Shown: positions 48,373 through 60,654 of the stretch, piece after piece | Layout of the letters: every line of letters starts with the position of its first letter | How positions within the stretch are numbered: the first letter of the stretch is position 1 | NCBI RefSeq assembly: GCF_006539125.1 | Contig: NZ_BJMK01000009.1 | Span: 1-64,000, forward strand | Origin: Gluconobacter sphaericus NBRC 12467 | Lineage (GTDB): Bacteria > Pseudomonadota > Alphaproteobacteria > Acetobacterales > Acetobacteraceae | Length of the DNA: 64,000 nucleotides | Reading direction: 5' to 3' | The notes under the pieces: generated by a model | Told to the model about the DNA's origin: nothing | Seen by the model: the letters and a program-made list of their open reading frames with translations, nothing else | Databases searched by the model: none | Position numbers and translations under genes: made by a program

Positions 48373-49284
48373 ATGCGCCATGACGAAACAGGGGACCTGC
48401 GCTTCTTTGCCCATCTTGTCGCCTCCGGCAGTTTGACCGCCTGTGCTCGCAATCTCCAGACATCGCCTGCGACGGTGTCTCGTCGTCTTGCCCGTTTGGA
48501 AAGTCGGCTGGGCAGCCTGTTGGTTGTCCGGAATACGCGGCATTTTGGGCTGAGTGAAAACGGGCGGATCTACCACGAGCGCGCGGTGGAAATTCTGGCG
48601 CTCATTGACGGTCTGGAAGAAGAAATTTCGTCCAACACCAACATTCCCCGGGGAACACTCGGGATCGGCGCTCCGGTAGAACTTGGACGACGCCTGATCG
48701 CACCTTTTCTGGCGACTTTCAGCGCCACATATCCGAATCTTCTGGTCAATCTGGCACTGGCCTCGGAAGGTTTTTATGATACCAGTGACTCTCTCGATGT
48801 CGTTCTGCGTCTGGGCCTTCCTGATTCTCCCGATGCGGTTGTCACCCGGTTGGCCTCGACAGTGCGGGTCCTGTGTGCATCACCTGAGTATCTGGCCCGT
48901 CGCCCTCAACCGGTGACGCCGCAAGACCTAGCTGCCCATGATTGTCTCTGTCTGAGGCGCAACAAGACAATGGCTCTTCTGGACCGTTGGGTTATCGGCA
49001 ACGACCTACAGACCGAGATCATCACGGTCGAACCCCGTCTTTCGAGTACAAATGCCGAGATCATTCATGACTGGGCGCTTTCGGGGGAAGGGATTGCCTA
49101 CAAGTTGCTCTGTGATGTTCATCATGACTTGGAACAGGGAAGGCTCGTGCGGATTTTTCCTGATTTGCAGGGAGAGAAAATCGACCTTCACGCCGTGTTG
49201 CCCAACCGGAAATATACGCAGGCCAGTGTGCGTGCCTTTCTAGATAGTTTCAAACGCCGTCTGCGTGTCGCGGGCTTCTTCTAG
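48373..49284 (+). CDS. LysR-family transcriptional regulator
   Basis: A 303-residue regulator: DLRFFAHLVASGSLTACARN, SPATVSRRLARLESRLGSLL (helix-turn-helix), then an effector domain (LGIGAPVELGRRLIAPFLAT). It resembles the AaeR/DmlR-like group that usually controls a divergent neighbour, here the lipocalin-like gene. AGGGGGGGCAGG precedes the ATG as a ribosome site. Confidence 0.9.
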   Translation: MRHDETGDLRFFAHLVASGSLTACARNLQTSPATVSRRLARLESRLGSLLVVRNTRHFGLSENGRIYHERAVEILALIDGLEEEISSNTNIPRGTLGIGAPVELGRRLIAPFLATFSATYPNLLVNLALASEGFYDTSDSLDVVLRLGLPDSPDAVVTRLASTVRVLCASPEYLARRPQPVTPQDLAAHDCLCLRRNKTMALLDRWVIGNDLQTEIITVEPRLSSTNAEIIHDWALSGEGIAYKLLCDVHHDLEQGRLVRIFPDLQGEKIDLHAVLPNRKYTQASVRAFLDSFKRRLRVAGFF

Positions 49285-49341
49285 TTGTCTAGTCCCGTAT
49301 TTTAGTGGTGTGATATTTTCACGAGAGTGGAAGGAAGCCTT

Positions 49342-49506
49342 ATGGGACAGAGACGTCATGGCAGCGCCACGACCATGTACGGCGTACGAGCCAGCAATAC
49401 AGCGATCGCAGGTCTCGCTCGCGGCGCTGAGCAAGGAGTTCGGGATCAATCCGAAAACCGTTGCAAAGTGGCGGAAGCGACAGAGTGTCGAAGATCAGAA
49501 AACAGG
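49342..49506 (+). pseudogene. IS481-type transposase N-terminal remnant
   Basis: MGQRRHGSATTMYGVRAS from ATG 49342, then after a +1 shift AIQRSQVSLAALSKEFGINP and TVAKWRKRQSVEDQKTG. This is the helix-turn-helix start of an IS481-family transposase; the DDE domain is absent. Frameshifted and truncated. Confidence 0.8.
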
Positions 49507-49531
49507 TCGCTCATCTTCAGTCTTTTCACAG

Positions 49532-49630
49532 TGCCTGAATCACACCCAATCACTCATATTAATTGGGCTTGAGCCTAATCAGAAGCGGAAGAGTGGAATT
49601 ACGCAGAAGTTCTTAAAAGCAGTGGTATTT
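49532..49630 (+). repeat. IS-derived segment, copy 2
   Basis: Diverged copy of 46442-46538, same orientation. Together they bracket galE, the lipocalin-like gene and a LysR gene. No open frame in it; it fills most of the gap between the IS481 remnant and the MFS stop codon. Confidence 0.5.
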
Positions 49631-49656
49631 CGATTATTTTATCTATGTGTTGATGA

Positions 49657-50919
49657 TTATTTTTCATAATATATTATGGAAATTGGATTTTTTACTAGAA
49701 TAATTGAAATAGCTCCTGCTAACACTAGGGATGCTGAGCATGCATACCAGGCGATATCGAAGCGACCAGTATATGATATTATATATCCTGTTATAATTGG
49801 TGCAAAAAGACCAAGAGAATTGCTGCATGTAAGAGTAACCCCTGTCACCGTGCCAATTTTATCTCCTTCCTCAACTAGGTCCGTAAGTAACGCTGTATTC
49901 GCCCCGTTCGCTGCAATAAGGCAGGCTAGCGAGCCGCCAAGGATGAGGAGAATGGGTGTCATGGTATGGAACCGGGGGAGAAAGCCGATCGTTGCGGCTC
50001 CTCCCAGGCAAGCTGCAACGATGAACCTGCGGCGTGGTGGATGGATGCCGTTCCGGAAAGTGAAATGTTCAAGAATACGGCCTATGACGATCGCACCAGC
50101 AGCTGCGGCGAGATAGCAGAGTGCTGTCCGATTACCTGTTCCGGTAATATCAATATGAAGCTCGTGAATGAGGTAAAGTGGCATCCAAGACATGACCAGA
50201 AAATTCAGGTAGTTCTGGGTACACTGGACAATGAGAATACCCAGAAAAGACCGTGATCTGAAAAGATTCCGGATTGATCCGAGGGAGAAGGGCGCGCGGG
50301 CAGGGCGAGACGTCCTGTCGGCTGGAGCGCGATAGACCAACCACCAGATTACGGCCCAGACCAGCCCGATCACTCCGAGTGCCATGAATTCGAAGCGCCA
50401 GCCGAAGAACGCGATCAGATAAGCACCGGCGATCGTGCCTCCGGCCAGTCCAAGCTGCATGCCGGTCAATAGAATCGTCATAACGGAGCCGCGTTCTTTT
50501 GGGAGCGCCCAGCTACGGACAACCGTAGCGCCGACACCAAAGGTCGGTGCTTCTCCGACGCCGAGGAGAATACGCGTCATCAGGAATCTGGTAATGTTGT
50601 GAGCCATTCCCCCCAGCAACATTGCAAAAGACCATATTGATACTGCTAGACTGCCGATCAGCCGCGCGCCTTTGCGGTCGAGGAGCATGGTTGAAGGAAG
50701 ATTCAACAGGAAATACGACCAGAGAAAGCTGGAGGAGACCCAGCCCATCTGTACGGGAGAAAGTGTGAATTCTTTTCCGAGCGTGGGCAGGGCAATGGAA
50801 AGCGCTGCACGGTCACCGTAGCTGATGACGTACATCAGAAAGACCAAAAGAAAAAATATGTATCGAGACGGAATATTCAGTTTCCGGGATATGAACGTTG
50901 TGGCTTGATCGGGTGTCAC
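49657..50919 (-). CDS. MFS transporter (anion:cation symporter family)
   Basis: A 420-residue, about 12-helix protein. YGDRAALSIALPTLGKEF in helix 1, WSYFLLNLPSTMLLDRKGAR (motif A) and LGVGEAPTFGVGATVVRSW place it in the ACS group with glucarate, phthalate and tartrate permeases. It probably imports an organic acid or acidic amino acid derivative. Minus strand, upstream of it lie the EamA and pxp genes; the gap to EamA is 64 bp, so it may be the last gene of that operon. The 3' end is AT-rich compared with the rest. Confidence 0.9.
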   Translation of the reverse strand: MTPDQATTFISRKLNIPSRYIFFLLVFLMYVISYGDRAALSIALPTLGKEFTLSPVQMGWVSSSFLWSYFLLNLPSTMLLDRKGARLIGSLAVSIWSFAMLLGGMAHNITRFLMTRILLGVGEAPTFGVGATVVRSWALPKERGSVMTILLTGMQLGLAGGTIAGAYLIAFFGWRFEFMALGVIGLVWAVIWWLVYRAPADRTSRPARAPFSLGSIRNLFRSRSFLGILIVQCTQNYLNFLVMSWMPLYLIHELHIDITGTGNRTALCYLAAAAGAIVIGRILEHFTFRNGIHPPRRRFIVAACLGGAATIGFLPRFHTMTPILLILGGSLACLIAANGANTALLTDLVEEGDKIGTVTGVTLTCSNSLGLFAPIITGYIISYTGRFDIAWYACSASLVLAGAISIILVKNPISIIYYEK

Positions 50920-51963: not shown

Positions 51964-52740
51964 TTATGATTGGCAATCGCGAAGTCGGAACGCCGGTGTC
52001 AGGACTGCCCCGGTCGCTTCAATTTCTGAGCGGATGGCTTTTGCCAGTTCCAGTGATCCCGGCGTATCGCTATGCACCAGAATGGACTGTGCCTTGACCT
52101 GAAGCCTTGATCCCACAGAGGTCATAACAGACCCGTCTTCAAGAAACTGCCTGACCCGCGCTCTGATGGCAGTCAGATCGTGGATGACGGCGCCCGGCTG
52201 GTCGCGCGGAACAAGCGTTCCAAGACTTGTATAGGCCCGGTCTGCAAGAAACAGTGTCTGAACACGAAGTCCTGCCGTCTCCGCTGCACGTTCCGTCAGT
52301 TGTCCGGGCATGCAGAACACTGTCAGTTCACGATCCAGCGCGGCGATGGCGCGGGCAAGCCTCAACGCCAGACCAGTATCGGCATTGGCCATGCTTCCGA
52401 AGGCAGCGTGATAGCTGACATGCGTGACTCGATGTCCGTGCAAGGCGGCCACGGCCTGAAGCGCGCCGATCTGGTAAACCATCATGGCCTCCATATCTGC
52501 ATCCGAAATAGACATGGAACGGCGGCCGAACCCGATCAGATCCGGTAATCCTGGATGTGCACCAATTCCGACACCTTTTGCTTTTGCGCGCTGAACCGTG
52601 CGGTTCATGATGGCGTAGTCACCGGCATGAAAGCCACAGGCGATATTGGCAGACGAAATAACGTCCATCAGCCCATCATCGTCAGCGATACGCCAGCGGC
52701 CAAAGCCTTCGCCCATGTCGGAATTTAGGTCGATCTTCAT
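51964..52740 (-). CDS. pxpA: 5-oxoprolinase subunit A (LamB/YcsF family)
   Basis: A 258-residue PxpA protein: KIDLNSDMGEGFGRW at the N-terminus, SSANIACGFHAGDYAIMNRT, GVGIGAHPGLPDLIGFGRRS and the terminal VHSDTPGSLELAKAIR. PxpA with PxpB and PxpC converts 5-oxoproline to glutamate with ATP. Its start overlaps the pxpC stop by 4 bp. Order on the minus strand is pxpB, pxpC, pxpA. Confidence 0.95.
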   Translation of the reverse strand: MKIDLNSDMGEGFGRWRIADDDGLMDVISSANIACGFHAGDYAIMNRTVQRAKAKGVGIGAHPGLPDLIGFGRRSMSISDADMEAMMVYQIGALQAVAALHGHRVTHVSYHAAFGSMANADTGLALRLARAIAALDRELTVFCMPGQLTERAAETAGLRVQTLFLADRAYTSLGTLVPRDQPGAVIHDLTAIRARVRQFLEDGSVMTSVGSRLQVKAQSILVHSDTPGSLELAKAIRSEIEATGAVLTPAFRLRDCQS

Positions 52741-53741
52741 GCTGTGCCTCGGGAGTTTGTACCGTTTCGTGACTGACAGGAGGCGCGGTAATGGGCGACC
52801 ATCAGGCGAAGATCATCAAGGTAACTGTCGATTGGCTGCTGGGCCGCGATGCCTGTCTTATGGCTGCATTCGACAAAGCGGATAGATGTTCCAATCCGCG
52901 CCTGGGACAGACGCCACAGATCGGCCTCGATCACGGTTGCAATGCGAGGGTAACCCCCAGCGGTATTCGCATCGGCGAGCTGGACGATAGGCTCACCTGC
53001 TGGAGGAACCTGTACGATGCCCGGAATAATGCCGTATGATCGCAGCTCGATCCGTTCGAGCAGGGTAAGTGGGGTGCCGCTTAGGCGATATCCTACGCGA
53101 TTGCTCTGGGGCGTGATGCGCCAGCCCTGATCCCAGAAACGCTCCCGGGACTCAGGTGTAAAACGCGCGTAATCCGCTCCGGGCACTGCGCGCAGCAGAA
53201 CGGTTTTCCCGTCGCCAGACTGATTTTCAAGAACGCGCGCTGGTGGAACCGCGCCATAACCCGAGAGCGAAGCGGACGCAGGTTTCGTGGCAAGCTCATC
53301 ACCGGCCTCGAGAAAGCGCCCATCCATTCCGCCGAAACCGCCTCGAAGCTGGGTGCTGCGTGAACCCAGCACCACAGGAACGTCAATGCCGCCTTCCACA
53401 CAGATATATGCCCGAGCACCCGTTTTGGGGATACCCACCCGTAGCACCTGTCCTGGAGCCGCGGTTTCCACGGACCACGTAAGAACAGGCCTGTCGTCCA
53501 GTGTCAGAGTCGCTTCAATTCCCGTGATGGCGAAGCTGGTTGGGGTGTCGAACCGGATTACGAAAGGATAGGTTTGAAGCTCGATACAGGCCGCTTCCGG
53601 CGCGTTTCCCAGAAGAATATTGCCAATTTCCAGGGCAAGCGAGTCCATGACGCCTGAGCTTCCAACCCCAAGATTACGATAGCCCGGACGTCCCTGATCT
53701 TGAATGGTGTTGAGCGGCGCGGTTTCGAGGATAGTGATCAC
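52737..53741 (-). CDS. pxpC: 5-oxoprolinase subunit C (KipA / biotin-dependent carboxyltransferase domain)
   Basis: A 334-residue protein: LETAPLNTIQDQGRPGYRNL, GVGSSGVMDSLALEIGNILL, ARAYICVEGGIDVPVVLGSR, RVGYRLSGTPL and VQVPPAGEPIVQLADANT. The fold is that of the C-terminal half of the carboxyltransferase domain in urea carboxylase, a fact relevant to the biotin genes encoded divergently. It overlaps pxpB and pxpA by 4 bp each. Confidence 0.95.
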   Translation of the reverse strand: MITILETAPLNTIQDQGRPGYRNLGVGSSGVMDSLALEIGNILLGNAPEAACIELQTYPFVIRFDTPTSFAITGIEATLTLDDRPVLTWSVETAAPGQVLRVGIPKTGARAYICVEGGIDVPVVLGSRSTQLRGGFGGMDGRFLEAGDELATKPASASLSGYGAVPPARVLENQSGDGKTVLLRAVPGADYARFTPESRERFWDQGWRITPQSNRVGYRLSGTPLTLLERIELRSYGIIPGIVQVPPAGEPIVQLADANTAGGYPRIATVIEADLWRLSQARIGTSIRFVECSHKTGIAAQQPIDSYLDDLRLMVAHYRASCQSRNGTNSRGTA

Positions 53742-54433
53742 AGCTCAATGCTCTCCGGGCAAAAACGGATGCGATCGCCTAAGGCAAACAGAGAAGGAGA
53801 GCTGCGATACGGGTCGAAAAGACAGATGTCGGTATAACCGATCGAATTCCAGCCATTGGGGCCGGTCAGTGCGGAAATCCCTGCCTGCATCCCCCCGATC
53901 GTCACGGTTCCTGCAGGCATGTTGAGTGAGGGAACGGATTTTCGCGGCGTTGCGATACGCGGATTCAGGCCATGGAGGTACCCGAACCCGGGTGCGCTTC
54001 CGACCGCGCATACGGTATATTCGCCTTCATGATGCAACCGGATAACCTCTTCGGGAGGCAGTCCAGTATGAGCGGAGACTGCTGCCAGATCTTCGCCTAG
54101 CGAGCCACCATAGCGAACATTCACTTCAAAGAGACGTCCGGTGATCTGGCGGGGCGGAAGGCTCTCCCAGGCGTTGTGGAGCCAGTCAGTAATCTGTTCC
54201 GGATCTTCCGGGGCGTGGGTGAAGATCAGAAGTAGGTTGGTGACGCCGGGGACGAGTTCCTGAATGTCAGGACGCTTTTCGGCATGCTCAATGAGTGCCC
54301 AGATCCGCTGCTGTTGCTCCATGGTAAAGGCGCCGGGTGCTTCGAACAGTATGGCGCGCGTGCCCATCATGCTGATAACTGGCGCGCTGCTGGCGTGATG
54401 CCGATCAGATGTGAGAAGCGTGTCTGCGGTCAA
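53738..54433 (-). CDS. pxpB: 5-oxoprolinase subunit B (KipI family)
   Basis: A 231-residue protein: FEVNVRYGGSLGEDLAAVSA, EEVIRLHHEGEYTVCAVGSA, PGFGYLHGLNPRIATPRKSV and MPAGTVTIGGMQAGISALTG. It corresponds to the N-terminal half of the urea-carboxylase carboxyltransferase domain and forms a complex with PxpC. First gene of the pxpBCA operon; the 312-bp region upstream holds a palindrome and a direct repeat. Confidence 0.95.
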   Translation of the reverse strand: MTADTLLTSDRHHASSAPVISMMGTRAILFEAPGAFTMEQQQRIWALIEHAEKRPDIQELVPGVTNLLLIFTHAPEDPEQITDWLHNAWESLPPRQITGRLFEVNVRYGGSLGEDLAAVSAHTGLPPEEVIRLHHEGEYTVCAVGSAPGFGYLHGLNPRIATPRKSVPSLNMPAGTVTIGGMQAGISALTGPNGWNSIGYTDICLFDPYRSSPSLFALGDRIRFCPESIEL

Positions 54434-54473
54434 AACATGCAGTTCCTGGGCTGTGACGGATCCGTCTCATTCT

Positions 54474-54491
54474 CTCAAAAGCCGTTTTGAG
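54474..54491. promoter_or_regulatory. Palindrome upstream of pxpB
   Basis: CTCAAAA-GCCG-TTTTGAG, perfect 7-bp arms, 41 bp from the pxpB start. Candidate operator overlapping the pxp promoter. Confidence 0.5.
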
Positions 54492-54553
54492 GCGGCATCG
54501 AAACGATATGACTGGCATGGGAATGATGACCAGAGGAATTCGGCGTTTGAGGT

Positions 54554-54611
54554 CATCGGATAATCTTATGGTTGAGTGATGGAGTACGAGTTCCATCGGA
54601 TAATGTTATGG
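54554..54611. repeat. Two direct repeats of CATCGGATAATsTTATGG
   Basis: Copies at 54554-54571 and 54594-54611 differ at one base (C/G), 40 bp apart centre to centre, about four helical turns. Each holds the dyad ATAA-nn-TTAT. Same-face spacing suits two regulator dimers. A looser copy (ATCGGAAACGTTATG) is at 12766-12780 beside the IclR gene of module A. Confidence 0.55.
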
Positions 54612-54745
54612 GGCAAGAACGAACGACTCTTGGTGTTTGCACAGTAACTCCATTAGCGTCAGGCTGATATTCCGGTCTGATGCTCCGTCTTGCGGGTCAA
54701 GCTGATGGCAGTCTTTCTCTTATTTCAGCAATGGGTTTTCTTCGC

Positions 54746-55501
54746 ATGAGTAATACTCCTTACCGCACAGCCCTCGTCACAGGTGCTTCTTCAGGCATTG
54801 GCGCGGCCATTGTCCGGCGGTTGAGCGAAGGCGGCATTGAAGTTCATGCCCTGGCCCGTGACGCAAAGCGTCTTGAAGCCCTGGCAAGCGATACGGGATG
54901 TATCCCCCATGCCGTCAGCGTATCGGATCAGGCCGGGCTCGAGGCGCTCATCGCTGGTCTGGAAGTCGATGTTCTGGTCAACAATGCGGGCCAGTCCCGG
55001 ACAGGAAACATCACCAACACGACGCCTGACGATATTGATGCGCTTGTGGACGTGAATCTGCGTGCGGTTCTGCAACTGACGCGTCTGGTGGTGCCGGGAA
55101 TGATTGAGCGCAACCGCGGGCATATCGTGAATATCAGTTCGATTGCCGGTCACTACGCCTTTGCAGGCGGCAACACGGTTTATCATACCACAAAGGCCGG
55201 CGTGCACTCACTATCCCAGCAGTTGCGGTGCGATTTGTTCGGCCGTCAGATCCGGGTGACGGAAGTCTCGCCCGCCCGTGTGGAGACCGAGGTTTTCGGC
55301 CGCCTGATTGGTGATATGGCCGAGGCGAAAAAGCGTTTCTTCGATGAGTATGATTCCCTGCTGCCTGAAGACATTGCTAACTCCGTGGCCTTTGCGGTTC
55401 TGGCGCCGCAACGCATGAATGTCAGCTTCATGGAAGTGCTGCCGACGATGCAGGTCGTGGGTGGGCTGAATTTTGCAAAGAAAACCTCTGCTCCGGGCTG
55501 A
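54746..55501 (+). CDS. Short-chain dehydrogenase/reductase (YdfG-like)
   Basis: ATG 54746 (MSNTPYRTALVTGASSG); other in-frame starts at 54731 and 54680 are possible and no start has a good ribosome site. The 251-residue protein has TGASSGIG, VNNAGQSRTG, catalytic Ser in NISSIAGHYAF, YHTTK and SPARVETEVFG. It resembles serine/3-hydroxy acid dehydrogenases of the YdfG type, which oxidise L-serine or 3-hydroxy acids. It opens the operon with the biotin genes, 5 bp before accB. Confidence 0.88.
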   Translation: MSNTPYRTALVTGASSGIGAAIVRRLSEGGIEVHALARDAKRLEALASDTGCIPHAVSVSDQAGLEALIAGLEVDVLVNNAGQSRTGNITNTTPDDIDALVDVNLRAVLQLTRLVVPGMIERNRGHIVNISSIAGHYAFAGGNTVYHTTKAGVHSLSQQLRCDLFGRQIRVTEVSPARVETEVFGRLIGDMAEAKKRFFDEYDSLLPEDIANSVAFAVLAPQRMNVSFMEVLPTMQVVGGLNFAKKTSAPG

Positions 55502-55506
55502 TATCA

Positions 55507-55935
55507 GTGGATCTCTCACAGATCAGACGCCTGATCGATCTCATGGCTCAGGCTCCGATTGCGGAGCTTGAGATTGAGGAAAATGGCCGCAGGGTCCGCC
55601 TTGCGAAAGCGCAGAACGGACAGAGGGCTGTTGCGGCAAAGCCAGCAGAAGCGACACCAGTCGTACCTCAATCCTCCGTGATGACACCTGCCTCAGATGC
55701 GCAGGCGACCATTACCGCACCGTCTTATGGTGTCTTCCACCTTGCGCCTTCACCGGATGCCTCGTCTTACGTTGTTGTCGGACAGAAAGTGGAAGCAGGG
55801 CAGCAGGTTGGATTGCTGGAGGCCATGAAGGTTTTCAATCCAGTCCGTGCGGGTATTGCAGGAACGATTGAGGCAGTTCTGGTGGCGGGTGGCACTGAAG
55901 TCGATATGGGAACGCCTCTGTTCCGTCTGGTATGA
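55507..55935 (+). CDS. accB: Biotin carboxyl carrier protein
   Basis: GTG start. The 142-residue protein has an AccB-type N-terminal helix (LSQIRRLIDLMAQAPIAELE), a Pro/Ala/Thr linker (about 45-70) and a C-terminal biotinyl domain with GLLEAMKVFNPVRAG, where Lys of the EAMK motif takes biotin. ITAPSYGVFHLAPSP opens the domain. It carries CO2 between the biotin carboxylase encoded next and a carboxyltransferase. Overlaps accC by 4 bp. Probably not the housekeeping copy, given the pxp setting. Confidence 0.92.
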   Translation: MDLSQIRRLIDLMAQAPIAELEIEENGRRVRLAKAQNGQRAVAAKPAEATPVVPQSSVMTPASDAQATITAPSYGVFHLAPSPDASSYVVVGQKVEAGQQVGLLEAMKVFNPVRAGIAGTIEAVLVAGGTEVDMGTPLFRLV

Positions 55936-57299
55936 ATAAAATGCAGCGTTTCAAAAGAGTTCTGATTGCCAATCGTGGGGAAATTGCTCTGCGCATCCAG
56001 CGCGCCTGTCGTCAGCTTGGGCTGGAAACAGTGGCGGTCTATTCGGAGGCCGATGCGGACAGCCGGCATGTCCGTGAAGCGGATGTGTCTCTATGCATCG
56101 GCCCTGCGGCTGCATCGAAAAGCTACCTCGACAGGGACGGCCTGCTTCTGGCTGCGAAAGTGACGGGAGCAGGAGCTATCCATCCGGGATATGGGTTCCT
56201 TTCGGAAAATGCGGATTTTGCCGATGCGGTTGAAGCCGCGGGGCTGACATTCATCGGCCCGACCGGAGACTCCATCCGTATGATGGGGGACAAGATTACC
56301 GCCAAGCGGGCCATGCGGGAGGCAGGGGTGCCCTGCGTGCCGGGTTCGGACGGACCACTTCCGGCTTCTGCGGAAGAAGTTCGGGCTATTGCGCTCGAAG
56401 TCGGTTTTCCCGTGATCGTAAAGGCCTCCGGCGGCGGTGGGGGGCGTGGCATGCGTGTCGTGCATGGTGGGGACGATCTGGAGAACGCCGTAGCACTGAC
56501 GGCCAAGGAGGCCCAGCAGGCCTTCGGTAACCCAACGCTGTATCTTGAAAAATACATGCAGAAGCCGCGCCATGTCGAAATCCAGGTCCTGTGTGATACG
56601 CATGGAACGGCACTCTGGCTTGGCGCGCGGGACTGCTCCTTGCAGCGGCGTCATCAGAAGGTTCTGGAAGAAGCCCCGGCACCTGGTATCCCGCCCGAAA
56701 CCATCGCCGAGATCGGAGAGCGCTGTGTTCAGGCCTGCCGACAGATTGCCTATCGCGGGGCAGGGACCTTCGAATTCCTGTATGAAGACGGGATCTTCGC
56801 GTTCATCGAGATGAACACACGCGTGCAGGTCGAGCATCCCATTACGGAAGAAACGACCGGCATTGATATCGTGGCCCAGCAGATTCGGATTGCACAGGGT
56901 GAAACACTTGGCCTGCGCCAGAACGATATCTTGATGCAGGGTCATGCGATTGAATGTCGTCTGAATGCGGAAGATGCGGCAACGTTCATGCCGTCTCCGG
57001 GAACGGTGACACGGTGGGACCTGCCTGGTGGTCCAGGCATTCGCGTGGATACGCATGTGGTCAGTAACTATACCGTGCAGCCTTACTATGACTCTCTGAT
57101 CGGGAAAATCATCAGCCATGGCGCAACGCGCGAACAGGCGATTGCCCGAATGCGCGTGGCGCTGGCCGAAATACGGGTTGAGGGCATTTCTACCAATATT
57201 GCTCTTCATCAAGCGCTTCTGGCCGATCCGCAGTTTCAGGAGGGAGGCGTCGATATTCACCATCTCGAACGCTGGCTTGCAGAGAGGTCGCCATCATGA
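55932..57299 (+). CDS. accC: Biotin carboxylase
   Basis: A 455-residue biotin carboxylase: VLIANRGEIALRIQRACRQL, GAGAIHPGYGFLSENADFAD, glycine-rich ATP loop KASGGGGGRGMRVV, EIQVLCDTHGTALWLGARDC, RRHQKVLEEAPAPG, FIEMNTRVQVEHPITEETTG. It makes carboxybiotin from bicarbonate and ATP. Overlaps with accB (4 bp) and the carrier-like gene (4 bp) show tight coupling. No carboxyltransferase gene lies in this operon; the divergent pxpBC genes are the only candidates seen. Confidence 0.95.
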   Translation: MNKMQRFKRVLIANRGEIALRIQRACRQLGLETVAVYSEADADSRHVREADVSLCIGPAAASKSYLDRDGLLLAAKVTGAGAIHPGYGFLSENADFADAVEAAGLTFIGPTGDSIRMMGDKITAKRAMREAGVPCVPGSDGPLPASAEEVRAIALEVGFPVIVKASGGGGGRGMRVVHGGDDLENAVALTAKEAQQAFGNPTLYLEKYMQKPRHVEIQVLCDTHGTALWLGARDCSLQRRHQKVLEEAPAPGIPPETIAEIGERCVQACRQIAYRGAGTFEFLYEDGIFAFIEMNTRVQVEHPITEETTGIDIVAQQIRIAQGETLGLRQNDILMQGHAIECRLNAEDAATFMPSPGTVTRWDLPGGPGIRVDTHVVSNYTVQPYYDSLIGKIISHGATREQAIARMRVALAEIRVEGISTNIALHQALLADPQFQEGGVDIHHLERWLAERSPS

Positions 57300-57739
57300 A
57301 CGCCGCAGAAAATCAGGTTCCGGAGTTTGAAGGCATTCCGTCTGCAGAGGATCTTGCACGGATTGCGGATTTTCTGATCAAGGCCGGGCTGGAGACAATC
57401 GAGCTTTCCGATGGCAAGGGTGCACGCTGTTTTATGCGTGTAACGTCCTCTGTCGTGAAATCGGATGTGCAGGTTGCAGAAAATGTTCCGCCTGTCGAGG
57501 CTCTCTCGAGCCGTATTGCAGTCAGTGCGCCATATTTCGGCACTCTGGTCCTGACGGAACTGGCGACAGTCGGAACCTTGGTGCAGCCGGGAGATGTGGT
57601 GGCAAAGATGCGGATCGGAGCCTTGCAGATCCCGGTTCTGGTTCCAGTAGCAGGGACGATCGTGGACGTTGCCGGGAAGGACGGTGCGCTGACGGGGTAT
57701 GGAGCTCCGGTTGTGCAGGTTGAATCGACAGGCCGATAA
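57296..57739 (+). CDS. Biotinyl-domain-like protein lacking the biotin lysine
   Basis: A 147-residue protein with AccB layout: N-terminal helix (AEDLARIADFLIKAGLETIE), linker, and a C-terminal beta-barrel (ISAPYFGTLVL-type segment, GTLVQPGDVVAKMRIGALQI, VAGTIVDVAGKDGALTGYG). Where EAMKV should stand there is RIGALQIPVLVPV, without Lys at the tip. It cannot carry biotin or lipoate there. It overlaps accC by 4 bp. It could be a structural subunit linking the carboxylase to PxpBC. Confidence 0.8.
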   Translation: MNAAENQVPEFEGIPSAEDLARIADFLIKAGLETIELSDGKGARCFMRVTSSVVKSDVQVAENVPPVEALSSRIAVSAPYFGTLVLTELATVGTLVQPGDVVAKMRIGALQIPVLVPVAGTIVDVAGKDGALTGYGAPVVQVESTGR

Positions 57740-57800: not shown

Positions 57801-59015
57801 TCAGCTTAAAGAGCTCACAAAATCCGCGATACGTCGGCAGCCTTCCTTCAGGGTTTCCCGGTCGGTTGCATAGGAAATACGGAAGAACGGACTCATGCCG
57901 TAAGCTCCCCCCTGAACGGATGCGACCTGCTGCTCTTCCAGCAGAGCCATGACGAAATCGGCATCCGTGGCGATATGACGTCCCTTGGGTGTGGTCTTTC
58001 CCAGGCAGGCGCTGATTTCAGGGTAGACGTAAAATGCGCCCTGCGGCGTGTGGCACGTGACGCCCGGAATGGCAGTTAGCAGACCGACAACCAGATCGCG
58101 GCGGGACTGGTATTCGGCAACACGCTCTTTGAGAAAATCCTGCGGACCTTCGAGGGCGGCAATGGCGGCGGCCTGCGCGATGGTGTTGATACCGCTGGTG
58201 GACTGTCCCTGCATGTTGTTCATGGCGGCAATCAGGCTCCGTGGACCGCCACAATAGCCAACGCGCCAGCCGGTCATAGCATAGGCCTTGGAGACGCCAT
58301 TGACTGTCAGAACACGGTCTTTCAGGCGGGGTTCGACTTCTGCAATGGTGCAGAAGTCGAACCCGTCATAGAGCAGATGTTCGTAAATATCATCCGTCAT
58401 GATCCAGACATGAGGATGCTTCAGCAGGACGGCCGCGATTTCTTCCATATCCTCACGAGGGCAACATGCGCCGGTCGGATTGTTGGGGAAGTTCAGCAGA
58501 AGCCATTTGGTGTTGGGTGTAATTGAGGCATCCAGCGCTTTGGCAGACAGGCGGAAATTGTCTTCGGCCGGGCAGTCGATCTGCACAGGTTTGGCGCCAC
58601 ACAGACGCGCAATGTCCGAATAGCTGATCCAGTATGGAGCGGCGAGAATAACCTCATCGCCTGTGTTACAGGTGGCCATCAGGGCGTCGAAAATGATCTG
58701 TTTGGCGCCATTGGCGACCAGAATTTCGTCAAGGGCGTAGTCGAGATGGTTTTCGCGCAGAAACTTCGCCTGAATGGCTTTTTTGAGCGCAGGTTTTCCA
58801 TCCTGCGGCGGATATTTGGTATCACCACCACGTGCGGCCGCGATGGCAGCCTCCACGACGTGGTCGGGGGTCGGGAAATCGGGTTCGCCGGAAGAGAGGC
58901 TCACAATTTTGAGGCCTTCTGCCTTGAGTTCGCGGGCCTTGTCGGTCATGGCGGCAGAGGCCGAGACTCCAATTCCGTTCAGTCGATCAGCAAAACCGGG
59001 CATTGATGTCTCCAT
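57801..59015 (-). CDS. aatA: Class I aminotransferase (aspartate aminotransferase type)
   Basis: A 404-residue PLP enzyme: SGEPDFPTPDHVVEAAIAAA, ANGAKQIIFDALMATCNTGD, LNFPNNPTGACCPREDMEEI, the PLP lysine in VNGVSKAYAMTGWRVGYCGG and the C-terminal FRISYATDRETLKEGCRRI with substrate-binding Arg. It fits the Ib subgroup of aspartate aminotransferases (also active on aromatic amino acids or prephenate in some species). Divergent from aspA across a region with a LysR-type box, so both serve aspartate/glutamate metabolism. Confidence 0.92.
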   Translation of the reverse strand: METSMPGFADRLNGIGVSASAAMTDKARELKAEGLKIVSLSSGEPDFPTPDHVVEAAIAAARGGDTKYPPQDGKPALKKAIQAKFLRENHLDYALDEILVANGAKQIIFDALMATCNTGDEVILAAPYWISYSDIARLCGAKPVQIDCPAEDNFRLSAKALDASITPNTKWLLLNFPNNPTGACCPREDMEEIAAVLLKHPHVWIMTDDIYEHLLYDGFDFCTIAEVEPRLKDRVLTVNGVSKAYAMTGWRVGYCGGPRSLIAAMNNMQGQSTSGINTIAQAAAIAALEGPQDFLKERVAEYQSRRDLVVGLLTAIPGVTCHTPQGAFYVYPEISACLGKTTPKGRHIATDADFVMALLEEQQVASVQGGAYGMSPFFRISYATDRETLKEGCRRIADFVSSLS

Positions 59016-59178: not shown

Positions 59179-60654
59179 ATGACGACATCCGCATCCCGGT
59201 CCGACGTTGCAGCAGACATGATGCCGCCACTGGATGGCTTCAGGGTCGAGAAAGACCTGTTGGGAGAGGCTTGTATCCCGAAGAATGCTCTGTGGGGGAT
59301 CCATACCAGTCGCGCGGTGGATAATTTTCCTATCAGCGGGGAGCCTGTCGGAGCATTTTCCGATTTCATCCGGGCATTTGTGACGGTCAAGCAGGCTGCT
59401 GCGCGGACGAACAGGGCACTCGGCTATCTGGATGAAGAGCGGGCCGGTTTAATCGAGGCGGCCTGCCAGGCCCTGTTGATCCGTGATGATTATCGTAACC
59501 ATTTTATTGTGGACGTTATGCAGGGTGGGGCAGGGACCTCTACCAACATGAACGTCAACGAAGTTATCGCCAATATCGCGCTGGAACTGGCGGGGCAAAA
59601 GCCCGGTGATTACCAGATTCTGCATCCAAACGATCATGTAAACATGGCGCAGTCCACAAATGATGTTTACCCAACCGCATTACGCTTGGGGCTTCTAACA
59701 GCAACTGCGCCTCTACTTGAGGCCTTGGAAGAACTGGCTCGGGCTTTCGAAAAGAAAGCTGATGAATTCTCGGACATTCTGAAAGTCGGCCGCACGCAGT
59801 TGCGCGATGCGGTACCCATGACGCTTGGACAGGAGTTCAGAGCATTCCAGCATGCAATGGAAACGGAACTCCATCACATACGCAGCCAGTCCGAAGCTTT
59901 TCTGACGGTCAATCTTGGCGGAACGGCGATTGGGACGGGCCTGAATACTGATCCACGTTACGCGGACGCCGTTATCCGGGAGCTTGGGAAATTGAGCGGT
60001 CTGGCCGTAACAGGTGCTGCCGACAAGATTGAAGCGACTTCGGATGTCGGAGCTTTCGTCCTGTTCTCAGGCGTACTCAAGCGGCTGGCGTTCAAATTGT
60101 CCAAGATTTCAAGCGATCTGCGCCTGCTGTCGAGCGGCCCGCGGGCGGGCATTGGAGAGATTACCCTGCCGTCCGTGCAGGCAGGGTCTTCGATCATGCC
60201 AGGCAAAGTCAATCCGGTCATCCCGGAAGCCGTCAATCAGGTGGCCTATCTCGTTGCAGGTTATGATGTCACGCTGAGCATGTGTGCTGATGGGGGACAG
60301 TTTCAGCTCAATCCTTTCGAGCCGATGATCGGATACTGTCTTTTTTCGTCCCTGAAGACGCTCACGGCAGCTATTAGGCTTCTGACCACAAAATGCGTCT
60401 CCGGAATTGCCGCGGACGCCGAGCAGTGCCGGTTTCTGTTTGAACGGAATATCGGTATCGTCACCGCGCTGGTTCCGCTTCTCGGCTACGATACCTGTTC
60501 CCGGATTGCCCGCCGGGCTCTGGCTGAAAACCGGAGCGTTCCGGAGCTTGTCCTTCAGGAAAAACTGGTGTCTCAGGACGTACTCGCAGGTCTGCTTCGC
60601 CCGGAATTCCTGACGCGGCCCAATGTCGGACAGGTTGAAGCGGCTTTCAGGTAG
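59179..60654 (+). CDS. aspA: Aspartate ammonia-lyase
   Basis: A 491-residue aspartase/fumarase superfamily enzyme: GEACIPKNALWGIHTSRAVD, MQGGAGTSTNMNVNEVIAN, HPNDHVNMAQSTNDVYPTAL, VGRTQLRDAVPMTLGQEF, and the GSSIMPGKVNPV signature. It converts aspartate to fumarate and ammonia. The 20-residue N-terminal extension is slightly longer than usual. It converges on the LysR gene with an 8-bp overlap of the stop regions. Confidence 0.93.
   Translation: MTTSASRSDVAADMMPPLDGFRVEKDLLGEACIPKNALWGIHTSRAVDNFPISGEPVGAFSDFIRAFVTVKQAAARTNRALGYLDEERAGLIEAACQALLIRDDYRNHFIVDVMQGGAGTSTNMNVNEVIANIALELAGQKPGDYQILHPNDHVNMAQSTNDVYPTALRLGLLTATAPLLEALEELARAFEKKADEFSDILKVGRTQLRDAVPMTLGQEFRAFQHAMETELHHIRSQSEAFLTVNLGGTAIGTGLNTDPRYADAVIRELGKLSGLAVTGAADKIEATSDVGAFVLFSGVLKRLAFKLSKISSDLRLLSSGPRAGIGEITLPSVQAGSSIMPGKVNPVIPEAVNQVAYLVAGYDVTLSMCADGGQFQLNPFEPMIGYCLFSSLKTLTAAIRLLTTKCVSGIAADAEQCRFLFERNIGIVTALVPLLGYDTCSRIARRALAENRSVPELVLQEKLVSQDVLAGLLRPEFLTRPNVGQVEAAFR

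Follow-up and report, generated by a model that had tools for sequence, protein, structure and literature searches.

A conserved pxpABC-accBC gene set in Gluconobacter sphaericus, a putative split urea-carboxylase-type enzyme with a LamB/YcsF hydrolase and a lysine-less carrier-like protein

Urea carboxylase, as in the urea amidolyase of K. lactis (PDB 3va7, 5i8i; TIGR02712), joins a biotin carboxylase (BC), a carboxyltransferase (CT; CT_A_B and CT_C_D) and a biotinylated biotin carboxyl carrier protein (BCCP) in a single BC-CT-BCCP polypeptide, and it is paired with allophanate hydrolase. The PxpABC 5-oxoprolinase of E. coli (ybgJKL), B. subtilis and C. glutamicum consists of PxpA, a protein of the LamB/YcsF family, and of PxpB and PxpC, which are homologous to the two halves of that carboxyltransferase. 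Lombard and Moreira (2011) noted that split urea-carboxylase CT genes are often adjacent, and gave no functional data on them (PMC3199775, section 8). This study concerns a gene set in a 64,000-nucleotide stretch of DNA (hereafter the window; contig NZ_BJMK01000009.1, positions 1 to 64,000) from Gluconobacter sphaericus NBRC 12467, in which the three pxp genes are divergent from genes for a biotin carrier (AccB), a biotin carboxylase (AccC) and a second carrier-like protein, here called carrier2. The sequence comparisons reported below suggest that this set is probably a split urea-carboxylase-type biotin enzyme that activates a lactam by carboxylation, with PxpA opening the ring and carrier2 docking or gating the other subunits. 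A urea-carboxylase-type set with a LamB/YcsF hydrolase and a subunit resembling plant BADC appears to be new, and no description of AccB and AccC working with PxpABC was found in the titles, abstract openings and passages of the literature searched. The genes of the set are as follows.

51964..52740, minus strand: pxpA (LamB/YcsF family; PF03746, E 1.4e-88), proposed lactam hydrolase
52737..53741, minus strand: pxpC, carboxyltransferase subdomains A+B (PF02626, E 3.3e-87; TIGR00724, 296 over 230)
53738..54433, minus strand: pxpB, carboxyltransferase subdomains C+D (PF02682, E 2.5e-61)
54434..54745, no strand: divergent intergenic region separating the two gene runs
54746..55501, plus strand: SDR family oxidoreductase (PF00106; best NCBIfam model YdfG, 161.6, under 411)
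55507..55935, plus strand: accB, biotin carboxyl carrier protein with an EAMKV biotinylation motif (PF00364, E 3.7e-15)
55932..57299, plus strand: accC, biotin carboxylase (PF02785, PF02786, PF00289)
57296..57739, plus strand: carrier2, paralogous to AccB but lacking the biotin lysine; proposed to assemble or gate the complex

By Pfam and NCBIfam matches the gene set is as the initial annotation had described it, with pxpA-pxpC-pxpB divergent from SDR-accB-accC-carrier2. Adjacent genes overlap by four bases at pxpA/pxpC, pxpC/pxpB, accB/accC and accC/carrier2, and five bases separate the SDR gene from accB. The minus-strand run, which also includes an MFS-like and an EamA transporter gene beyond pxpA, stands back-to-back with the plus-strand run. 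A consensus scan of positions 54400-54800 found no sigma-70-like promoter or terminator, and an Rfam search over the window returned nothing.

The likeness to urea carboxylase extends to the individual proteins, in that the window PxpC model matches its CT and window AccC its BC domain, and the closest solved chains to window PxpC are E. coli YbgK, M. smegmatis AHS2 and K. lactis urea carboxylase. However, the window set is spread over five genes with no protein near the TIGR02712 cut-off of 1303.85 bits, has PxpA in the place of the amidase, and includes a second carrier that lacks the lysine. The same three proteins as in PxpABC 5-oxoprolinase are encoded together in the window, but E. coli has no accBC or carrier2 alongside, and window PxpC does not reach the PxpC equivalog NF045499 (PxpC_5OPro; 304.7 against a cut-off of 500, with 591.8 for the E. 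coli control). Window PxpB passes the PxpB equivalog TIGR00370 (175.6 bits; cut-off 145.55), and window PxpA passes the NF003814 subfamily (325 bits; cut-off 226) and is under all three PxpA equivalog cut-offs. PxpABC is termed ATP-dependent, though no ATP-binding domain turned up when window PxpA, PxpB and PxpC were scanned with Pfam; AccC has one.

The draft genome spans 3.06 Mb on 97 contigs and is 99.92% complete. Among named genomes, Gluconobacter albidus NBRC 3250 has the most similar PxpC (95% identity). Whole-genome searches found two PxpB, two PxpA and three biotin carboxylases, the last all in frames of 466-493 amino acids, together with six Biotin_lipoyl matches, three of which adjoin the biotin carboxylases. 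The separate housekeeping accBC that the initial annotation had proposed to look for is present on contig C10, where a biotin carboxylase has its own accB alongside, and both extra biotin carboxylases, in the window and on contig C28, adjoin pxpABC. The C28 genes lie on a single strand in the order MFS-pxpB-pxpC-pxpA-accB-accC-carrier2. Just past this cluster, after an opposite-strand MarR-like gene, are HyuA- and HyuB-like genes (hydantoinase/5-oxoprolinase, by eye; L012, G000:C28, 11334-14992). Carboxyl_trans (PF01039) has two matches in the genome (C1 and C7), fitting one AccA and one AccD. The earlier remark that no other carboxyltransferase was in sight therefore holds genome-wide for PF01039, which gave no further carboxyltransferase for the extra BC and BCCP, pyruvate-carboxylase-type enzymes lying outside the search.

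A housekeeping role for the window accBC was rejected, because the genome has three biotin carboxylases, one of them in its own accB-accC pair on C10, and a single AccA/AccD pair, while the extra copies lie with pxpABC. That accBC might instead be additional acetyl-CoA carboxylase subunits lying beside pxpABC by chance is hardly credible. Window AccC does pass the acetyl-CoA carboxylase AccC equivalog TIGR00514 (658.6 bits; cut-off 626.5), but window AccB misses the BCCP equivalog TIGR00531 (102.6 bits; cut-off 115.2), and unlike the acetyl-CoA carboxylase AccABCD the set has no AccA or AccD of its own. The C10 pair also argues against such a role, as do the recurrence of the set across families and the placement of pxp-linked AccC in a separate clade that tracks PxpC, both described below.

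Comparison with other genomes indicates that the gene set is real and conserved, and better supported than the initial annotation could know. Of 519 PxpC relatives, the 80 nearest in named genomes were compared: 75 loci combine accC with two BCCPs, of which one bears the biotin-lysine motif and the other does not, five hold neither accC nor either BCCP, and none holds a partial set. Of those five, L195 ends at a contig edge, L204 is a second copy with a complete copy (L212) on the same contig, and L219, to judge by the equal length of the contigs, seems to lie ~12 kb from the accBC-carrier2-pxpA part in L098; L233 and L242 lack accBC and carrier2 without an explanation of this kind. Within the order, a search with carrier2 gave matches at E 0.001 in 65 of 299 genomes, the weakest of which may be ordinary AccB, and accB-accC was directly upstream of carrier2 in all 30 loci returned from the order (the window's own included). 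Twelve longer stretches from the family hold pxpA, pxpB and pxpC in ten cases and pxpA only in two (L096, L098). Outside the family, eight stretches taken from among the best hits of carrier2 profile A1 comprised four loci with the type I architecture defined below, two with carrier2 only, and two with accB-accC only (L085, L086), in neither of which was a pxp gene found. This profile matched 332 of 398 genomes over the phylum and is unspecific because ordinary AccB was matched too.

The set is also carried on plasmids, where a rhizobial carrier2 was matched by 169 of 72,556 records, 122 of them Rhizobium. Four of these records (L099-L102) share the order accB-accC-carrier2-pxpB-pxpC-pxpA-aminotransferase-nac/LysR-SDR-amino-acid ABC transporter. 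The present reading bears on annotation, since accB and accC are labelled in these four records as subunits of acetyl-CoA carboxylase or as biotin/lipoyl subunits, and carrier2 is labelled either hypothetical or acetyl-CoA carboxylase. These rhizobial operons end, at ~18.0-18.4 kb of the stretches, in a gene annotated as 4-carboxy-4-hydroxy-2-oxoadipate aldolase/oxaloacetate decarboxylase.

Over the phylum, 160 genomes were drawn evenly; CT_C_D was found in 50 of them, with 69 matches in total. After exclusion of two matches of the window genome and 21 in frames of more than 1,100 amino acids (urea-carboxylase-like; two were checked for BC), accC lies within ~8 kb of 13 of the 46 unfused PxpB loci, which exceeds chance expectation. 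The 13 fall into three PxpC lineages and three architectures. A binomial estimate that treats the loci as independent and supposes five BC genes in every 5 Mb gives p 6e-13 for accC near PxpB; because the loci are related, only the ratio behind it is trustworthy. Type I consists of accB-accC-carrier2 with pxpABC (sample loci G404, G352 and G371, the last being L106). Type II (L113, L118, L126, L130, L131, L134) occurs with pxpA; PxpB and PxpC share a reading frame in five of its six loci, and BC is fused to a BCCP bearing EAMKM or DAMKM in all six, which makes it in gene content nearly a two-protein urea carboxylase with a LamB/YcsF partner. Type III (L142, L144, L145, L146) combines pxpA and accC with a short BCCP bearing EVMK, with PxpC and with a divergent PxpB. 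The linked BCCPs of all three types retain the biotin-lysine motif. The phylogenetic co-occurrence that the initial annotation had suggested examining is thus seen both in this sample and in the all-or-none pattern of the nearest PxpC relatives.

In a PxpC tree, which leaves out L127 (ending at a contig edge) and L147 (a second stretch of the L080 locus), types II and III each form one clade (100), type III is closest to the urea-carboxylase CT (92), and type I falls within a third clade (95) together with two carrier2-only loci and the accC-less L105. E. coli PxpC clusters with L105 and L106 (93), on the type I side. Window AccC was aligned with the housekeeping and C28 copies, and the 23 type I AccC sequences cluster in a single clade that excludes housekeeping AccC (support 84, or 97 when L106 is left out). 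The PxpC, AccC and carrier2 trees are concordant, with the window copy placed with its own family and the C28 copy with G352 (90, 91, 91/63). This suggests inheritance as a unit, because both copies within one genome keep matching placements across the trees. PxpC and AccC distances correlate over 14 chosen loci (r 0.88; none of 2,000 permutations as high), a value inflated by shared species history. The tree programme warned of long branches, including those of L080 and L012 in the carrier2 tree.

Carrier2 aligns with AccB over its full length, N-terminal part included, and lacks a lysine at the biotin position (AccB EAMK) in all 20 aligned members, which comprise 12 of the window's family, the window and C28 copies, and four type I and two carrier2-only sequences from other families. 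The initial annotation had described this protein as a second carrier-like protein; the missing lysine makes it improbable that carrier2 carries biotin, and a part in assembly or gating suits it better. The window protein scores 19.5 bits against Biotin_lipoyl, below the cut-off of 22.1, and has no NCBIfam match at E 0.001; at E 1, Biotin_lipoyl matches 20 of the 20 members and the NCBIfam BCCP model 18, and the Pfam and NCBIfam scans of the members gave no model specific to the family. An AlphaFold2 model (mean pLDDT 80.9, carrier domain mostly >90) is placed by Foldseek at 1.1-2.7 A from isolated biotinyl domains (target TM 0.79-0.92), that is, in the BCCP fold. The reading of carrier2 as a decaying pseudogene was rejected, its dN/dS against two same-genus loci (0.48 and 0.23) being near that of accB (0.43 and 0.23) and indicating purifying selection. 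In the carrier2 tree 19 of the 20 members form one clade (98/93); L106 lies outside and may therefore be a separate loss of the lysine, though a single clade of all 20 was not rejected (p 0.327). This most distant carrier2 (L106, G371:C114, 4397-4885, past pxpA) has a lysine one residue beyond the aligned biotin position.

Two genomes of another family, f49 (L082, 8278-8745; L084, 7745-8212), have a lysine-less carrier2 with pxpABC, an aminotransferase and an SDR, although accBC is not nearby and each genome has a single stand-alone AccC. G670 and G519 each have one stand-alone AccC in the genome, yet carrier2 stays with pxpABC in both, which suggests that it serves PxpABC itself. A parallel is offered by BADC of the plant heteromeric acetyl-CoA carboxylase, whose proteins are BCCP-like, lack the biotinylation motif and are reported to glue BC and BCCP together, though other authors regard them as inhibitors (PMC11926652). 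However, BADC belongs to a plastid acetyl-CoA carboxylase and not to a lactam enzyme, and the likeness of carrier2 is by analogy and does not imply a common lysine-less ancestor. The gene set thereby suggests that bacteria have a family of carrier-like proteins devoid of the biotin lysine.

The model proposed here is that AccC would use ATP and bicarbonate to form carboxybiotin on AccB, and that PxpB and PxpC, as the two urea-carboxylase-type CT halves, would transfer the carboxyl group to a lactam. Hydrolysis of the activated ring by PxpA would then yield an N-carboxy amino acid, which would lose CO2, so that the net reaction would be that of an ATP-dependent 5-oxoprolinase. Carrier2 would act as a non-catalytic AccB paralogue that docks or gates AccB and AccC on PxpBC in a manner comparable to BADC, and the complex is predicted to form in Gluconobacter. 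Because the net balance would be the same, a need for biotin might escape notice in extracts containing AccBC. If the ATP is spent by the biotin carboxylase and the ring is activated by carboxylation, a direct test becomes available for the unsettled mechanism of PxpABC, and a lactam would join the substrates of biotin carboxylases.

A comparable arrangement may exist in M. smegmatis. The chain lists of PDB 9yx5 hold 'Allophanate hydrolase subunit 1' and 'subunit 2', which match 3mml of M. smegmatis, together with the BC-BCCP subunit AccA3, whereas by their titles 9yx1, 9yx2 and 9yx4 are the long-chain acyl-CoA carboxylase of M. smegmatis and 9yx0 is a 3-methylcrotonyl-CoA carboxylase. The pair concerned (Msmeg0435-Msmeg0436) is up ~two-fold under nitrogen limitation according to PMC4617892. 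The likeness is that PxpB and PxpC homologues are listed with a BC-BCCP subunit; the difference is that BC and BCCP are one shared polypeptide there and separate genes in the window, and that no carrier2 chain appears in the chain lists.

Several points weigh against the biotin-dependent model. No accC is nearby at 33 of the 46 unfused PxpB loci in the phylum sample, and in E. coli neither accBC nor carrier2 stands beside pxpABC even though its PxpC branches on the type I side. The evidence from 9yx5 is limited to its chain lists. In the literature, PxpBC is assumed to phosphorylate 5-oxoproline (PMC13274462), co-purified PxpB and PxpC hydrolyse ATP (PMC8453981), and a paper cited by the latter claims in its title a phosphorylated tetrahedral intermediate for a 5-oxoprolinase. 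Of 30 PxpC columns common to types I, II and III and urea carboxylase, 28 are also present at >=75% in unlinked rows. Finally, the model leaves the SDR without a role.

The conserved columns cut both ways, as they may reflect either one PxpBC chemistry with borrowed BC and BCCP where these are not encoded nearby, or an association that is an add-on. The two remaining PxpC columns speak for the biotin-dependent model: R110 (32 of 33) and T130 (33 of 33) are kept in biotin-linked or urea-carboxylase rows, and each occurs in 17 of 32 unlinked rows. For PxpB, in an alignment without urea-carboxylase rows, 17 columns are common to types I-III, and F71, E103, G181 and D207 are found in fewer than half of the 32 unlinked rows. 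These six residues are candidates only, because kinship was uncontrolled.

The same observations can be read to mean that PxpABC is an ordinary, biotin-independent 5-oxoprolinase in which PxpBC phosphorylates the lactam, with AccB, AccC and carrier2 acting elsewhere in the pathway. The accC-less loci, the published phosphorylation and ATPase statements and the PxpC columns shared with unlinked PxpC all favour this explanation. However, it is unlikely, as it leaves the extra BC and BCCP without a second carboxyltransferase (PF01039) and has to accommodate the all-or-none co-occurrence among the best 80 of 519 PxpC loci, three separate accC associations, concordant trees and the pairing of PxpB and PxpC homologues with AccA3 in 9yx5. 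Overall, the initial proposal that PxpB and PxpC form a carboxyltransferase working with AccC, AccB and PxpA as ring opener is well supported by the genome-wide counts, gene content, trees, architectures and 9yx5; carboxylation by PxpBC and the identity of the substrate are predictions of the model. A tentative and rather doubtful extension is that PxpBC could be a biotin-dependent carboxyltransferase family-wide, with the ATP cost in the biotin carboxylase. E. coli, the f49 loci and mycobacteria would then borrow housekeeping BC and BCCP, lineages with a dedicated accBC would have their own supply, and carrier2-type proteins would be bacterial BADC counterparts docking BC-BCCP, whether borrowed or dedicated, onto PxpBC. 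If this is true, pyroglutamate salvage is tied to biotin and fatty-acid metabolism.

Under the carboxylation model the most likely lactam is 5-oxoproline or a compound close to it. PxpA, the amino-acid transporter and the aminotransferase make 5-oxoproline the starting guess, but window PxpC scores so far under the 5-oxoprolinase PxpC cut-off that a related lactam is possible. Plain release of glutamate would explain neither the SDR nor the rhizobial aldolase, and the aldolase hints at a hydroxylated relative of 5-oxoproline as a possible substrate. In Aspergillus nidulans (lamA/lamB), lactam use requires a LamB/YcsF protein alongside a larger one, which is a lead only. The complex could alternatively carboxylate another small molecule such as urea, hydantoin or another ureido compound, with PxpA acting on the product. 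The homology of PxpBC to the urea carboxylase CT, the hyuA/hyuB-like genes adjoining the C28 cluster and the low score of window PxpC (304.7 of 500) are consistent with this, but it is very unlikely, given that a LamB/YcsF protein stands where an amidase would be expected and that the rhizobial operons encode an amino-acid transporter and an aminotransferase. Urea itself, one of the substrates named in the initial annotation, is disfavoured and that branch weakened, as no allophanate hydrolase in the genome is over the cut-off (best 196.4 bits against 511.05).

Four genes flank the set in the window.

49657..50919, minus strand: MFS-like transporter, named by eye; the gene ahead of pxpB on C28 is a homologue with 48% identity
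50984..51901, minus strand: EamA transporter (PF00892) adjoining pxpA, kept in Acetobacteraceae loci
57801..59015, minus strand: class I/II aminotransferase (PF00155, E 8.2e-82), likely downstream step
59179..60654, plus strand: aspartate ammonia-lyase family gene (NF008909, 665.8 over 510), possible downstream step

The aminotransferase, which scores 528 bits against the aspartate transaminase model NF004769 (under 617), is kept beside the pxp genes in Acetobacteraceae and rhizobial-type loci, and the aspartate ammonia-lyase family gene is kept in many Acetobacteraceae loci; both would process the released amino acid. The SDR gene stays with the set in Acetobacteraceae and also in rhizobial loci (~55% identity). 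A short open reading frame (49265-49669) flanked by a LysR gene and the MFS-like gene has a transposase-like helix-turn-helix, recognized by eye, and is perhaps the remnant of an insertion sequence.

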